This document shows, in pieces, positions 1-6,214 of a stretch of DNA of 64,000 nucleotides. The position numbers were made by a program, and so were the translations under genes. Source of the stretch: Microbacterium sp. EYE_78 (GTDB lineage: Bacteria; Actinomycetota; Actinomycetes; Actinomycetales; Microbacteriaceae); the NCBI RefSeq assembly GCF_023149035.1, contig NZ_JAHXMY010000001.1:434001-498000 (forward strand), given 5' to 3'. The notes under the pieces are model-generated. The model saw only the letters and a program-made list of their open reading frames with translations, ran no database searches and was not told where the DNA came from. Position 1 is the first letter of the stretch. Every line of letters starts with the position of its first letter.

Positions 1-52
1 CGACGCCGGGGGCGGCGCCCAGCAGCACGCGCAGCCGTCCGCGTCCCCCCAC
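1..52 (-). CDS. kdpD: KdpD sensor kinase, N-terminal fragment
   Basis: Only the first 17 codons lie in the window. Read from a GTG at 52..50 they give MGGRGRLRVLLGAAPGV, which matches the start of KdpD, where an R-G-(R/K)-L-(R/K)-V stretch precedes the Walker A segment GAAPGVGKT. The GTG follows the kdpC stop after two bases, so it is translated within the kdp operon. KdpD is the membrane histidine kinase that senses K+ limitation and activates KdpE. The body of the gene and any kdpE lie outside the window. Identity rests on this short match plus position directly after kdpC. Confidence 0.8.
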   Translation of the reverse strand, partial: MGGRGRLRVLLGAAPGV

Positions 53-54
53 TG

Positions 55-669
55 TCAGCCTCCGAGCCCGTCCAGGGCGAGATTGAGTTCCAGCACGTTC
101 ACGGTCGATTCGCCCAGGAACCCGAGGTCGGGACCCTGGGTGTGATCGGCGACGAGGCGTCGGACCTCCGACACGAGCAGGCCGCGGGCCTCGGCAACGC
201 GGTCGACCTGGATCGAAGCGTACGCGGGGCTGATGTGCGGGTCGAGTCCGGAGCCCGAGGCGGTGACGGCGTCGGCGGGGACGTCCGCGGCGGGCACGCC
301 GTCGCGCTCCGCGATGGCCGCCTTCCGCTCCCGGATCGCGGCGACGAGATCCTCGTTCTCGGGGCCGAGGTTCGAGCCCGACGAGGCGCCTCCGTCGTAC
401 CCGTCGCCGGCGGCCGAGGGACGCGGCTGGAAGTACTGCGGGAGCGCGTCGCCGTCGGCATCCGCGACGGGCTGCCCGAGGAGCGAGGAGCCGACGGCCG
501 CGCCGTCGGCGCCCCGCACGAGCGACCCGTTCGCCTGGGCCGGCAGGGCGACCTGGCCGACGAGGGTGATGACCGCGGTGTAACCGACGCCCAGGAGGAG
601 CGTGAAGACGACCATGGCGCGGACGGCGACCGCGACGGTGCGCCAGGTGGAGCGGGATGAGCTGTGCAT
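55..669 (-). CDS. kdpC: K+-transporting ATPase subunit C
   Basis: 204 aa. KdpC is the single-span accessory subunit of the KdpFABC potassium pump and is thought to help couple KdpB to KdpA. A cytoplasmic basic start (about residues 1-16) is followed by one transmembrane helix (about 17-40) and an extracytoplasmic domain with the family segments YFQPRPSA, SGSNLGPEN, ASGSGLDPHISP and the C-terminal VNVLELNLAL. Length is normal for the family. It lies 17 nt behind kdpB and 2 nt ahead of kdpD, consistent with one transcript. The protein is clearly intact. Confidence 0.97.
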   Translation of the reverse strand: MHSSSRSTWRTVAVAVRAMVVFTLLLGVGYTAVITLVGQVALPAQANGSLVRGADGAAVGSSLLGQPVADADGDALPQYFQPRPSAAGDGYDGGASSGSNLGPENEDLVAAIRERKAAIAERDGVPAADVPADAVTASGSGLDPHISPAYASIQVDRVAEARGLLVSEVRRLVADHTQGPDLGFLGESTVNVLELNLALDGLGG

Positions 670-686
670 GACGGGGTGTCCTCGAT

Positions 687-2828
687 TCAGAAGCCGGGGA
701 GGAGGCGGACGACCAGGTCGATCAGCCAGATCCCGATGAAGGGGGCGACCACACCACCGAGGCCGTAGACGGCGAGGTTGCGGCCGAGGATCGACGACGC
801 GCCGCCGGGGCGGTAGCGCACGCCGCGCAGGGCGAGCGGGATGAGCGCGATGATGACGAGCGCGTTGAAGATGATCGCCGAGAGCACCGCGGATGCCGGT
901 GAGTGCAGGCCCATGATGTTCAGCGCCCCCAGCTGCGGGAACACGCCCATGAACATCGCCGGGATGATCGCGAAGTACTTGGCGATGTCGTTCGCGATCG
1001 AGAACGTCGTCAGCGCGCCGCGCGTGATGAGGAGTTGCTTGCCGATCCGGACGATGTCGATGAGCTTCGTCGGGTCGGAGTCGAGATCGACCATGTTGCC
1101 GGCCTCCTTGGCCGCTGACGTGCCCGAGTTCATCGCGACGCCGACGTCCGCCTGCGCGAGCGCGGGCGCGTCGTTCGTGCCGTCACCGGTCATCGCGACG
1201 AGGTTGCCGCCCTCCTGCTCCCTGCGGATGTAGGCGAGCTTGTCCTCGGGCGTCGCCTCGGCGAGGACGTCGTCGACACCGGCCTCCTTCGCGATCGCGG
1301 CCGCGGTCAACGGGTTGTCGCCGGTGATCATGACGGTGCGGATGCCCATGGACCGCAGCTCGGCGAAGCGCTCGCTGAGGCCGTCCTTGACGACGTCCTT
1401 CAGGTGCACGACCCCGAGCACGCGGCCGGAGCCGGCGGCATCCTTCGTCGCGACCACCAGCGGGGTGCCGCCGGACTGCGAGATCTCCTCGGTGCGTGCG
1501 GTCAGATCCGCCCGGACGTCGGCGGGCAGCGGCGTGCCGCCCTGCTCGAGCCAGCCGACGATCGCCGAGCCGGCGCCCTTGCGGATGGCCGAGCCGCCGG
1601 GCAGGTCGAGACCGCTCATGCGCGTCTGCGCCGTGAACGGCACGACGACGCCCTGCGACTGCCGCGTCACGTCGATGCCGCGGCGGACGGCGAGGTCGAC
1701 GATCGAGCTGCCCTCGGGCGTCGGGTCGGCCAGCGACGAGAGCGCGGCCGCGCGCGTGAGCTCCTGCTGCGCCTGGCCTGCCAGCGGGACGAACTCGGAC
1801 GCCCGACGATTGCCGTACGTGATCGTGCCGGTCTTGTCGAGCAGCAGCGTCGTCACGTCGCCCGCCGCCTCGACCGCGCGGCCGGACATGGCGAGGACGT
1901 TCCGCTGCACGAGCCGGTCCATGCCGGCGATCCCGATGGCCGACAGGAGCGCGCCGATCGTCGTCGGGATGAGGCACACCAGGAGCGCGACGAGGACGGG
2001 GATGCTGACCGGTGCCGCCGCGTACGAGGCGACCGGGTTCAGGATGAGCGCCACGACCACGAAGATGATCGACAGGCTCGCCAGCAGGATGTTCAGGGCG
2101 ATCTCGTTCGGCGTCTTCTGCCGGGCCGCCCCCTCGACGAGCGCGATCATCCGGTCGACGAAGGTCTCGCCGGGCTTCGAGGTGATGCGCACGACGATGC
2201 GGTCCGAGAGCACCCGGGTGCCGCCCGTGACGGCGCTGCGGTCGCCGCCGGATTCCCGGATGACGGGGGCCGACTCCCCCGTGATGGCGGACTCGTCCAC
2301 CGAGGCGATGCCCTGCACGACGTCCCCGTCGCCGGGGATGAGGTCTCCGGCCGCGACCACGACCACGTCGCCGAGGGTGAGGTCGGCCGACGAGACGTCG
2401 TCGATCGTCACGCGCTCGGCCGCGGCATCCGTCTGCTCGTCGTAGCCGGTCACACGATGGGCGACCGTGCTCGTGCGGGTCTTGCGGAGCGTCTCGGCCT
2501 GCGCCTTGCCGCGACCCTCGGCGACGGACTCGGCGACGTTGGCGAAGAGAACCGTCAGCCACAGCCAGACGGCGATCACCACCGTGAAGGGCGCGGGCAC
2601 CGGGCTGCCGCCCGAGTCGCCGGGGCCGCCGAGAGAGGGCTCCGCGATCGCGAGGACCGTCGTCAGCACGGCTCCGACCCAGACGATGAACATCACGGGG
2701 TTGCGCCACTGGGCGCGCGGGTCGAGCTTGCGCAACGCCCCCGGGAGGGCGGCCGCGATCGCGGCGCCGTCGATGCCGCCGCGCGGAGCGGGAGCCGGGG
2801 CGACGGGTTCGAGAGTGGGGGTGGACAT
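687..2828 (-). CDS. kdpB: K+-transporting P-type ATPase subunit B
   Basis: 713 aa. The catalytic P-type ATPase subunit hydrolyses ATP to drive K+ uptake through KdpA. The phosphorylation motif DKTGT is present with the acceptor aspartate at residue 331. The actuator motif TGES (in [17 protein letters not shown]) and the hinge [16 protein letters not shown] are intact, as are the membrane segments around the ion path ([18 protein letters not shown]). About 30 residues of extra N-terminus compared with the E. coli protein precede the first helix, common in actinobacteria. The start codon lies one base after the kdpA stop, so translation is coupled. Confidence 0.98.
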
Positions 2829-2829
2829 G

Positions 2830-4503
2830 TCAGATCAGTCCTTCTGCCAGGGGACCCAGCGCGAGTACGGGGAAGTAGGTGAGGGCGGTCACGATGACGA
2901 TCACGCCGATGAGCAGGCCGACGAACAGCGGACGGTGCGTCGGGAGCGTGCCGGCCGTGGCCGGCACCGTGTCTTGCGCCGCGAACGATCCGGCGAGGGC
3001 GAGGACGAGCACGATCGGCAGGAACCGGCCGAGCAGCATCGCGACGCCGAGCGCGGTGTTCAGCCACGGGGTGTTCGCGGTGAGGCCCGCGAACGCCGAG
3101 CCGTTGTTGTTCGCGGCGGAGGTGAAGGCGTAGAGCACTTCGCTGGAGCCGTGGATGCCGGGGTTCCAGATCGAGGTCGTCGTGACGTCCTCGCGGACCG
3201 CGGGGATCGCGAAGCTCAGCGCCGTGCCGACCAGGACGAGGATGGGGGTCACGAGGATGGAGATGCTCGCGAGCGTGATCTCGCGCGGACCGATCTTCTT
3301 GCCCAGGTACTCCGGCGTGCGGCCGACGAGGAGTCCCGCGATGAAGACCGCGAGGACCGCCATCACGAGCATGCCGTACAGGCCCGATCCGACACCGCCG
3401 GGGGCGAGCTCGCCGAGCATCATGTTGAGCAACGGCATCATGCCGCCGAGCGCCGTGAAGGAGTCGTGCATCGAGTTGACGGCGCCGGTCGAGGTGAGCG
3501 TGCTCGTCGACCCGAAGAGCGTCGACCCGATGATCCCGAACCGCACCTCCTTGCCCTCGAGCGCGGCGCCGGCGAGCGCGGGCGCGGTGCCGCGGCCCGC
3601 CAGCTCGAACGCGGTGAGCGCGAGCGTCGATCCGACGAACAGGACGCCCATCGCGCCGAGGATCGCGTACCCCTGGCGCTTGTCGCCGAGCATCGTGCCG
3701 AAGGTGCGCGGCAACGAGAAGGGGATGATCAGCATCAGGATGATCTCGAAGAGGTTCGTCCAGCCCGTCGGGTTCTCGAACGGGTGCGCCGAGTTCGCGT
3801 TGAAGACGCCGCCGCCGTTGGTGCCGAGGAGCTTGATCGCCTCCTGCGAGGCGACGGGTCCGCCGGGGATGCGCTGGGCGCCACCGCTCACCGTGGTGAC
3901 GTCGGTGAAGCCGTTCAGGTTCTGGACGACGCCACCCGTGAGGAGCACGACCGCGGCGATGACCGACAGCGGCAGGAGCAGGCGGACCGTGCCGCGAGTC
4001 AGGTCGACCCAGAAGTTGCCGATCGTGCCGCTGCGACGGTATGCGAGGCCCCGCACGAGGGCGATCGCGACGGCCAGGCCGACGGCTGCCGACACGAAGT
4101 TCTGGACCGCGAGCGCCGCGAACTGCACGGTGTACCCGAGTGTCAGTTCGGGCGAGTAGGACTGCCAGTTCGTGTTCGTCACGAACGACACGGCCGTGTT
4201 GAAGGCGAGGTGCTCGCTCGGCGCGGGGAGCCCCAGGGACCACGGCAGCCATTGCTGCGCACGCTGCAGGAGGTAGACCAGGAGGACGCCGACGAGCGAG
4301 AACGCGAGCACGCTGCGCGCGTACGACTGCCACGTCTGGGCGGATGCCGGGTCGACGCCGATGAGTCGGTACAGGCCGCGTTCGGCCCGGGCATCCTTCG
4401 ACGAGGTGTACACCCAGGCCATGTAGTCGCCGAGGGGGCGGTACGCGACGGCGAGGATGAGCGCGAGCGTCGCGAGGGTGAGGACGGCGGGGAGCCACGC
4501 CAT
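2830..4503 (-). CDS. kdpA: K+-transporting ATPase subunit A
   Basis: 557 aa, the same length as E. coli KdpA. This is the K+-binding channel-like subunit, a ten-helix membrane protein distantly related to K+ channels. Recognisable pieces include the N-terminal ADYMAWVY-like segment ([11 protein letters not shown]), [14 protein letters not shown] of the first pore loop, [19 protein letters not shown] of the second, and [13 protein letters not shown] near the C-terminus. The ATG at 4503 overlaps the kdpF stop by one base (TGATG), fixing the start and implying coupled translation. No damage is seen. Confidence 0.98.
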
Positions 4504-4592
4504 CAGAACTTCTCCGGCTTCACGAGGGCGACGAAGAGGTAGACCACCGCGGCGACGCCGAGGACCGCGGCGATGATGTCGAACGCGTTCAT
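4503..4592 (-). CDS. kdpF: K+-transporting ATPase subunit F
   Basis: 29 aa: a single hydrophobic helix followed by a basic tail ending VALVKPEKF, the usual KdpF pattern (helix, then an aromatic/leucine-rich end with KPE(R/K)F). KdpF is the small lipid-like subunit that stabilises KdpABC in the membrane. Its ATG (4592..4590) overlaps the TGA of the small ORF upstream in an ATGA arrangement, and its own TGA overlaps the kdpA start. The double coupling leaves little doubt that it is translated. It is too short for routine gene calling and easily missed. Confidence 0.93.
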
Positions 4593-4672
4593 ACCCGGTC
4601 CACCGCCTTCGCGAACGATCCGATGATCACGAACAGGACGATGACGCCCAGCACGATGACGATGTCGAGCAC
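4589..4672 (-). CDS. Tiny membrane protein ahead of kdpF
   Basis: 27 aa from GTG at 4672: one predicted membrane helix ([19 protein letters not shown]) and a short charged tail AKAVDRV. A GGAG ribosome-binding site lies about 10 nt upstream, and the TGA overlaps the kdpF ATG (ATGA), so it would be the first cistron of the kdp operon. It is not KdpF, which follows it and carries the KPEKF signature. I have an unverified recollection of similar one-helix ORFs ahead of kdpF in other actinobacteria. Function unknown; an additional pump subunit or an assembly peptide is possible. Confidence 0.65.
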
Positions 4673-4775
4673 GAGAGACGCTCCGTTTCGGGATGGCCGG
4701 TCTCGCGCTGACGCGGACCGTGCGTCGGGAAGACGCATCCCCGATGGAACACCGGTGCCCGCACGTCGCCGGCGG

Positions 4776-4826
4776 TCCTCACGGAATCCATACGGGCGCG
4801 CGCGGAGTCCTGACGGGATCCTGACG
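4776..4826 (-). promoter_or_regulatory. kdp promoter region with direct repeats, possible KdpE sites
   Basis: On the + strand, TCCTGACG occurs at 4808..4815 and 4819..4826, 11 bp apart (about one helical turn). A related TCCTCACG lies at 4776..4783, about three turns further. Reading toward kdp, the tandem pair is followed after 15 bp by a -10-like TATGGAT (+ strand 4786..4792). Direct repeats at one-turn spacing just upstream of a -10 box are typical of OmpR-class activators such as KdpE. That assignment is inference; only the repeats are seen directly. Confidence 0.4.
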
Positions 4827-4835
4827 CGGCGCGGT

Positions 4836-5489
4836 TCAGCCCCTCGCGGCGGCCCACTCGGCGAGCGCGGTCACGAGCGCCGCGTGGCCCGCCGCGTCGT
4901 ACGAGCGCGCGTCGTGGCCCAGCACGTCCACCGCGATGCGGGAGCGTCCCACCGTGCGACGCCAGGCGGCCGGTTCGCGGCCGCTCCCCGCGTCGTCGCC
5001 CGCGTGCCACGCGACGACCTCCCGCGCGCCGGTCGCCTGCAGCGCGCAGTACCGCTCGTCGTCGACCTCGAACGTCTCCCCGAGACCGGCGTCGACGTCG
5101 ACGCGCATCCGGCCGAAGGGCGGGTGGAACGACGACTCCGGCACCCACACGGCGCCGATCGCGCCGGCCCACTGCGGATAGTCCCGGAGCGAGGCGGTCG
5201 CGCAGTGGTGGGCGAGCACCCCGATCCCCCGGTCGAGCGCAGCGGCGAACGAGGCGATCGACGCGGCGGGCGCGGCCCGCGGGCCCTCCCGCCACGGATC
5301 GCCCGCGTTGACGACGAGTAGGTCGACGCCCTCGAGGGCCGCCATGCCGGCATCCACATCCTCCGTCACGTCGACGTCGTGCCCGGCGGCGGCGAGGATG
5401 TCACGGATGCGGGCGGTGGTGGCGGGGAACGGATGCCACGGGTCGGCGTAGCGTCCCGAGCCCGACAGGATGAGCGCCCTGGAGGTCAT
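4836..5489 (-). CDS. ThuA-domain protein
   Basis: 217 aa from the ATG at 5489, which overlaps the upstream cupin stop (ATGA) and so decides the start. The fold is that of ThuA-like proteins (class I glutamine amidotransferase-like, trehalose-utilisation family): an N-terminal ALILSG strand, a central LLVVNAGDPW segment, GIGVLAHHCATASLRDYPQWAGAIGAVW, and a final VAWHAGD-R-AVDVLGHDARSYD part. ThuA-like proteins occur with Gfo/Idh/MocA dehydrogenases in sugar catabolic loci, as here, but their biochemical reaction is poorly defined. It is the last gene of a tightly overlapped operon running from 8255. Confidence 0.85.
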   Translation of the reverse strand: MTSRALILSGSGRYADPWHPFPATTARIRDILAAAGHDVDVTEDVDAGMAALEGVDLLVVNAGDPWREGPRAAPAASIASFAAALDRGIGVLAHHCATASLRDYPQWAGAIGAVWVPESSFHPPFGRMRVDVDAGLGETFEVDDERYCALQATGAREVVAWHAGDDAGSGREPAAWRRTVGRSRIAVDVLGHDARSYDAAGHAALVTALAEWAAARG

Positions 5490-6214
5490 CCCCCCATCCT
5501 GCCGTCGTCGCGGGGCCAGCCGGCCGGCCAGTCCCACGTCCGGAGCATGCCGCACATGCCGTGGCGGCGCCCGCCGCCCCGCGGCACCGCACGCGCGACG
5601 GCGGCGTCGCCGAGCATGCCCGGGTCACCGCCCGCGAGTGCCGACAACTGCGACGCGACCCGCGCCGTTTCGGCCGCGACGGTCGCGTCGAAGAGCTCCT
5701 GCCAGTGGGGGACGCGGTGACGGACGATCCGCACGGCGTCCTCGTGGAGCGCCCGGAAGGCCGCCGAGCCACCCGCACGCAGCTCGGCGAACCCCTCGAG
5801 CGCGAGGTCGCGCCGCGCGCGCACGGCCGCGTCCGCACCGGCGCCGTCCGGCAGGGCCGCAGCGACGGCGTACGCGTCCGGGTCGGCCCTGACCGCTGCC
5901 GGGAAGGTGAAGACCGCGTCGCCCGCTTCGGGCAGCCCCGCGTTGGACATGACGACCAGCAGCCGCAGATCACCGCCATTGACGAGACGGTGCACCGTGC
6001 CGGGGCTGAAGGACAGGACGTCCCCGACGTGCAGCGGGTGTTCCTCGAACCCGGCGGCTGAGACGGTCTGGACCGCGCCCTCCCCCCCGATGACCACATA
6101 GCCCTCGCTGGATGCGGTGTGCAGGTGGGGAGTGCCGCCGCGGCATCCGTCCGCCGCCGCCTCGTCGTACACCTCGAGGTCGGTGAGCGCGACGCCACCC
6201 GGGAAGAGGGTCAT
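5486..6214 (-). CDS. Cupin-domain protein
   Basis: 242 aa from ATG 6214; that ATG overlaps the DUF6807 stop. A single cupin barrel occupies about residues 10-115: TPHLHTASSEGYVVIGG carries His30 and His32 as metal ligands, with Glu37 close by, and GDVLSFSPGTVHRLVNGGDL carries the second-motif His. The remaining 120 residues are helical and of unknown role. Cupins beside ThuA and Gfo/Idh/MocA genes often act as sugar isomerases or sensors. Substrate cannot be read from the sequence. Confidence 0.8.
   Translation of the reverse strand: MTLFPGGVALTDLEVYDEAAADGCRGGTPHLHTASSEGYVVIGGEGAVQTVSAAGFEEHPLHVGDVLSFSPGTVHRLVNGGDLRLLVVMSNAGLPEAGDAVFTFPAAVRADPDAYAVAAALPDGAGADAAVRARRDLALEGFAELRAGGSAAFRALHEDAVRIVRHRVPHWQELFDATVAAETARVASQLSALAGGDPGMLGDAAVARAVPRGGGRRHGMCGMLRTWDWPAGWPRDDGRMGG

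Follow-up and report, generated by a model that had tools for sequence, protein, structure and literature searches.

The 64,000-nucleotide stretch of Microbacterium sp. EYE_78 DNA analysed here (the window) carries a very short open reading frame immediately in front of kdpF, which raises the question of whether the Kdp pump is made with a second tiny membrane protein and what such a protein would do. The initial annotation described this frame (the mini-ORF) as a 27-codon GTG ORF with a ribosome-binding site and an ATGA overlap with kdpF, and reading the coordinates, the GGAG motif and the overlap bore out each of these features. The strand, which was missing from the annotation, is minus, and the overlap joins the TGA of the mini-ORF to the ATG of kdpF (4592-4590). 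An alternative in-frame ATG at 4738 gives a 49-residue product, which was rejected because the lengths of the relatives cluster at 27 codons; the DNA just 5' of the mini-ORF is rarely alignable among these relatives.

The mini-ORF at the head of the kdp operon

The genes around the mini-ORF were identified by family matches (Table 1). The kdpD ORF encodes 828 residues and is followed by a 234-residue ORF with a response-regulator-like start, which is probably kdpE, identified by eye only. The operon order is mini-ORF, kdpF, kdpA, kdpB, kdpC, kdpD and probably kdpE, with the mini-ORF probably the first gene. The claim of a second one-helix mini-protein at the head of the operon was upheld, with kdpF, kdpA, kdpB and kdpC identified and the frame conserved as described below. 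The nearest named relative of the window kdpA was that of M. oleivorans, at 93% identity.

Table 1. Features of the kdp region, in window coordinates.
Feature	Position	Strand	Evidence or remark
kdpD 5' end	1..52	minus	runs past window edge; PF02702 315 bits at G000:C1:433417-434043
kdpC	55..669	minus	PRK00315 202 bits, TIGR00681 202 bits
kdpB	687..2828	minus	TIGR01497 996 bits
kdpA	2830..4503	minus	PF03814 771 bits, TIGR00680 697 bits
kdpF	4503..4592	minus	PF09604 35.3 bits (cut-off 21.2), TIGR02115 30.8 bits
mini-ORF (27 codons)	4589..4672	minus	GTG start 4672-4670, TGA stop 4591-4589
Shine-Dalgarno GGAG	4681..4684	minus	8-nt spacer to mini-ORF GTG
candidate KdpE operator box CGTATGGATTCCGTGAGGAC	4775..4794	minus	direct repeat, ~100 bp before mini-ORF
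second candidate KdpE operator box CGTCAGGATCCCGTCAGGAC	4807..4826	minus	~135 bp before mini-ORF start
ThuA-type gene	4836-5555	minus	PF06283; next gene upstream, ends ~164 bp before mini-ORF

The leader contains two candidate KdpE operator boxes. The direct-repeat pattern CGTNNGGNNNCCGTNAGGAC matched only twice in the 64 kb with at most one mismatch, compared to 0.11 matches expected, and similar boxes scoring at least 11 of 13 fixed bases were found upstream of the mini-ORF in 90 of 172 regions, compared to 0 of 172 when simply shuffled; as the pattern was drawn from the window and its relatives, neither the comparison with 0.11 nor its presence in relatives provides an independent test. The window leader gave no Rfam match and nothing unusual in RNA folding (z -1.04), and a riboswitch or other known leader RNA was rejected on these grounds. 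A sigma-70 promoter scan found nothing.

The box layout resembles the KdpE site of M. smegmatis, which was determined there as a 22-bp element (PMC5401905). In the same paper the kdpF GTG is preceded by a leader of 120 nt, mapped by 5'-RACE and named a 5'-UTR, so that a region occupying the same place as the mini-ORF is there described as untranslated (PMC5401905). The mini-ORF of seven named mycobacterial loci begins 74–80 nt before kdpF, and because of this spacing the M. smegmatis leader, by extrapolation from these seven other loci, probably contains the mini-ORF and would carry it into the transcript made at low K+.

Conservation of the mini-ORF in actinobacteria

Further kdp loci were collected via KdpA from 398 genomes of the family, of which 214 have kdpA, and 296 genomes of the class, of which 150 do, together with named contigs and plasmids. 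The sample is not random, as it was made up of the best-scoring loci per search, genus-spread regions, the best 80 named contigs (whose titles are all actinobacterial) and selected plasmid matches. It gave 225 upstream regions, consisting of a first group of 40 (L003-L042), 159 other actinobacterial regions and 26 from outside the phylum; three of the first group (L033, L040, L042) belong to other families, and some of the 159 to the family of the window.

A clean split was made by dividing the distinct actinobacterial loci, plus four extra, according to kdpA identity to the window into 57 near (at least 68%) and 142 distant loci. With 48 near peptides as its source, the profile found the mini-ORF at the expected place in 100 of the 142 distant loci, and one made from 89 distant peptides found it in 56 of the 57 near loci (E <= 0.01 in both cases). 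Neither cross-validated profile matched the minus strand of these regions at E <= 0.01, and the sole plus-strand match elsewhere was in L117, an operon without KdpF. With the profile built from all peptides, which had already seen most of the peptides it counts, the distinct counts over the three sample groups were 37/37, 129/158 and 5/26. By profile (mini-ORF E <= 1, KdpF E <= 0.01), the 195 distinct actinobacterial regions comprised 172 with both mini-ORF and KdpF, 15 with KdpF only and 8 with neither. The frame, whose loss in relatives had been named by the initial annotation as the result that would speak against the mini-protein, is kept in the family and in most of the other actinobacterial loci sampled.

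When 58 related genomes were searched as a whole, 30 profile matches were obtained at E <= 0.011 and all 30 were located at kdp genes, 29 of them 42–220 bp upstream of a kdpA match on the same strand. The 30th (L259, G721:C139) is a frameshifted mini-ORF followed by kdpF and then by non-kdpA sequence near a contig end, which is a broken or misassembled kdp locus. Matches at E 0.025 and up were located elsewhere in the genomes, mostly within long ORFs, and were taken as noise. An adjacent mini-ORF match was present in 28 of the 30 kdpA-bearing genomes; in G720 the mini-ORF was recognised by reading and scored weakly (E 3.7), and in G439, which has kdpA, there was no mini-ORF. The conserved co-occurrence across these 58 genomes is with kdp genes only. 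In the window's own assembly the profile matched the mini-ORF at E 7.3e-6, with no other match below 0.225. Of 13 annotated plasmid records containing the mini-ORF, 11 list no gene for it, the gene table being incomplete, an Arthrobacter plasmid record places it inside a longer 'hypothetical protein', and the Mycetohabitans record enters it as the 34-residue product described below.

The signals expected of a translated gene were scored in the 175 loci that have the mini-ORF by the all-in profile, duplicates kept. An in-register ATG, GTG or TTG start codon was found in 168 loci, a Shine-Dalgarno-like tetramer before the start in 144 (compared to 19% of control positions), a length of exactly 27 codons in 149, and a stop/start overlap in 171 (GTGA in 151, ATGA in 20). 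The in-frame pN/pS, calculated pairwise from pairs at least 70% identical, came to 0.62 for the first 40 loci and to 0.56 for the remaining actinobacterial ones, compared to 0.81–1.42 in the other two frames and 0.42 and 0.49 for kdpF. The upstream-DNA control was unusable, as 10 pairs in the first group and 5–6 in the second exceeded 70% identity and the ratios ranged from 0.56 to 2.24. Purifying selection on the mini-ORF is moderate, and weaker than on kdpF.

The sequence and alignment columns were read as one hydrophobic helix of approximately 18–20 residues with charged flanks. Among 168 peptides the most conserved positions were Asp3 (93%), Phe14 (95%) and Leu27 (90%), together with Lys/Arg22 (86%), Lys/Arg26 (94%) and Glu/Asp25 (77%); the C-terminal end is VDRV in the window and VE[RK]L in the family consensus. 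Small residues occur at positions 12, 15, 18, 21 and 23 with helical periodicity (P = 0.006), whereas the helical periodicity of overall conservation was not significant (P = 0.13). Thirteen loci (L015, L036-L039, L088, L113, L116, L138, L143, L146, L149, L161) have a C-terminal tail of 15–32 residues; these tails are polar, the core is kept, and the stop is still part of GTGA or ATGA.

Short ORFs are numerous in this GC-rich stretch, and the mini-ORF could be a chance ORF in leader DNA. The conserved length, frame, start signals and residues refute this explanation, leaving it a negligible probability. Judged on these comparisons, the mini-ORF is a genuine gene, and its 27-residue product would be a single-pass membrane protein. 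The mini-ORF gave no match to Pfam or NCBIfam at E up to 10, and its profile gave none to PDB sequences at the same limit. Scattered weak matches were obtained with 62 aligned relatives, the best at 0.0069 (Pfam) and 0.0083 (NCBIfam) with one member each; these single-member matches, including PGF-CTERM, Psb35 and AcrZ (one of the 62 members, E 0.045), were taken as chance. The mini-protein is apparently an uncharacterised family tied to one operon.

Distribution outside the class and relation to KdpF

The actinobacterial profile was iterated over the 26 loci outside the phylum and 16 loci elsewhere in the phylum, taking the best match per locus. Two loci without a kdpA start (L255, L258) and the extra same-class loci were left out. 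Inclusion in the profile was allowed only for plus-strand matches upstream of kdpA, and L250 was consequently never included, because its mini-ORF relative ends on kdpA. Elsewhere in the phylum 7 of the 16 loci matched in the first round (E <= 0.006). Outside it, 11 of the 26 matched at E <= 0.0081 in the round before their inclusion, 7 of them at E <= 0.003 in the first round; these were from Methylocystis, Shinella, Rhizobium, Paracoccus, Azospirillum, Acidiphilium, Acetobacter, Roseomonas, Caballeronia, Mycetohabitans and D. radiodurans. In no locus of the iterated search was the best match, at E <= 0.05, a minus-strand one or one within a segment of KdpF or KdpA.

The remaining 15 of the 26 loci sampled outside the phylum were profile-negative, including all four Bacillota and the one archaeon, which indicates that the mini-protein is not needed for pumping everywhere. 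These loci were from E. coli (one strain), Providencia, a Raoultella plasmid, S. epidermidis, Enterococcus, Listeria, Lactiplantibacillus, Halobacterium, Synechocystis, Acinetobacter, Deinococcus QL22, Ideonella, Variovorax, Sphingobium and Novosphingobium. Variovorax, Sphingobium and Novosphingobium each have, on visual inspection, a right-looking ORF in the expected position, which the profile rejected and which was not counted; in Listeria there is a candidate by eye only.

Gene order and spacing vary among the positive loci. In Rhizobium, Azospirillum and Paracoccus the mini-ORF stops 9–12 nt before kdpF, without an overlap. On the D. radiodurans plasmid pMP1 (L128, 834-1441) the order is kdpB, mini-ORF, kdpF, kdpA, kdpC; the gene table of this plasmid has neither the kdpF-like ORF nor the mini-ORF entered. 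The 34-residue protein WP_191287747.1 from Mycetohabitans rhizoxinica occupies the place of the mini-ORF directly before kdpF, and the iterated profile matched it at 3.3e-4 one round ahead of its inclusion (E 0.43 with the Actinobacteria-only profile in round one, which does not reach it). Its NCBI product name, 'potassium ABC transporter ATPase', is unsuited to a 34-residue one-helix peptide.

The equal size, the single helix in both products and the neighbouring genes could suggest that the mini-ORF is a diverged duplicate of KdpF. The KdpF family (PF09604, TIGR02115) shares with the mini-protein a length of approximately 29 residues, one hydrophobic helix, charges near the C-terminus and a usually adjacent place in the same operon. 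However, profile-profile comparison (hhalign) gave a probability of 6%, indicating no homology, and neither PF09604 nor TIGR02115 matched the mini-ORF at E <= 10, while kdpF itself matched both. The signatures also differ, with MxD...F14...[KR]xVE[KR]L in the mini-protein, including D3, F14 and VE[RK]L, and PE[RK]F in KdpF; the window mini-ORF has neither the end nor the place of a KdpF, as its last residues are VDRV and it is separated from kdpA by kdpF. At E <= 0.01 the cross-validated profiles never fell on the kdpF place in KdpF-bearing loci. The duplication was rejected on the lack of a family match and the 6% profile probability, and we consider it very improbable.

Relatives of the mini-ORF were also found in three operons without recognisable KdpF in any of three frames, each overlapping kdpA by GTGA. 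These were L117 (E 0.001, 16.6 bits), L119, with a weak relative (E 0.08, 10.5 bits), and L250, which belongs to another part of the phylum and matched at 9.1e-6 in the first round. L117 and L119 had been counted among the 8 regions with neither gene because the position filter missed them; the other six were L103 and L105-L109. L105-L109 are diverged second kdpA copies, 53–56% identical to that of the window, and have neither KdpF nor mini-ORF upstream.

Proposed role of the mini-protein

The mini-protein is probably a one-helix accessory of the Kdp pump, either as a subunit or as a modulator. We infer its transcription and translation in the window's organism, its topology, its contact with the pump and its effect on pumping from the comparisons above. 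As the first gene of the operon, downstream of the likely KdpE operators, the mini-ORF would be expressed with the pump at low K+; it would be translated from its own ribosome-binding site and coupled to kdpF by the four-base stop/start overlap present in nearly all loci that have the mini-ORF. The peptide is likely to insert N-out/C-in, because Asp3 precedes the helix and Lys/Arg22 and Lys/Arg26 follow it, as predicted by the positive-inside rule. The stripe of small residues at 12, 15, 18, 21 and 23 could then pack on the pump as a second accessory helix beside KdpF, and this helix may stabilise or tune the complex. Contact on the KdpA side is suggested because D. radiodurans keeps the mini-ORF and kdpF before kdpA with kdpB first, and because a relative takes the place before kdpA in operons without KdpF.

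Much of this evidence would also fit a role in regulation or coupling, and the main rival is that the mini-ORF serves translational coupling, so that its translation itself matters for coupling or attenuation of kdpF translation and the peptide is a by-product. The overlap in 171 of 175 loci, the position between operator-like boxes and kdpF, and the similar overlap with kdpA in relatives without KdpF would all be expected of such a leader ORF. The sequence of a leader peptide would be expected to drift freely outside its stall or regulatory codons, but here particular positions are kept at both termini and within the helix, and related peptides occur outside the phylum; the peptide also persists without the overlap in Rhizobium, Azospirillum and Paracoccus, and the window leader has no Rfam match and a folding z of -1.0. 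We regard this reading as unlikely. The peptide could also belong to the kdp regulon as a membrane peptide that acts on another membrane protein and is not a pump subunit, for example in feedback on the sensor KdpD. In the window's genome kdpD follows kdpC, and small membrane peptides that act on sensor kinases are known (PMC3618439). However, in D. radiodurans the mini-ORF remains grouped with kdpF and kdpA, with kdpB before them, and its relatives overlap kdpA where kdpF is missing. Because of this gene order and these overlaps the mini-ORF appears tied to the genes of the pump and not to kdpD, and a target of this type is considered rather improbable.

We propose tentatively, as a scenario somewhat short of probable, that the ancestral pump had five parts, two of them one-helix micro-subunits. 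The second of these would have been lost in enterobacteria, Bacillota and others, so that the KdpFABC of E. coli, on which structural work is based, would be a reduced form; in some lineages KdpF would have been lost and the mini-helix alone left. KdpFABC is a model P-type ATPase with structures from E. coli, and in the E. coli strain examined here KdpF was present and the mini-ORF was not found. If true, a further micro-subunit conserved in groups such as actinobacteria and alphaproteobacteria would change what has to be purified and modelled as a complete KdpFABC, and the annotation of leaders, among them the 5'-UTR of M. smegmatis, would need correcting. The overlapping pair of mini-genes would also provide a test case for why one pump keeps two tiny helices.

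The name KdpG is already used for an Anabaena gene and was not adopted for the mini-protein. No report of a second small ORF before kdpF was found in the literature searched, which consisted mainly of titles and abstract openings; in the accessible parts of two papers (PMC11364881, PMC5741613) kdpF is named only in the references. Like the mini-protein, the bacterial micro-subunits CydX (named in PMC4325964 and PMC6005532) and AcrZ (PF10766) are very short and consist of one helix; proteins of this kind are encoded with a large membrane complex or act on one, here complexes other than the Kdp pump. Phospholamban, sarcolipin and the FXYD proteins are animal proteins, and their likeness to the mini-protein, whose pump binding is putative, is one of kind; they are named in PMC10654040 and are tiny one-helix accessory subunits located beside P-type ATPases, as proposed here for the mini-protein. 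The mini-protein appears to belong among these one-helix accessory proteins of membrane complexes, and its putative role as a subunit of the Kdp pump is plausible.
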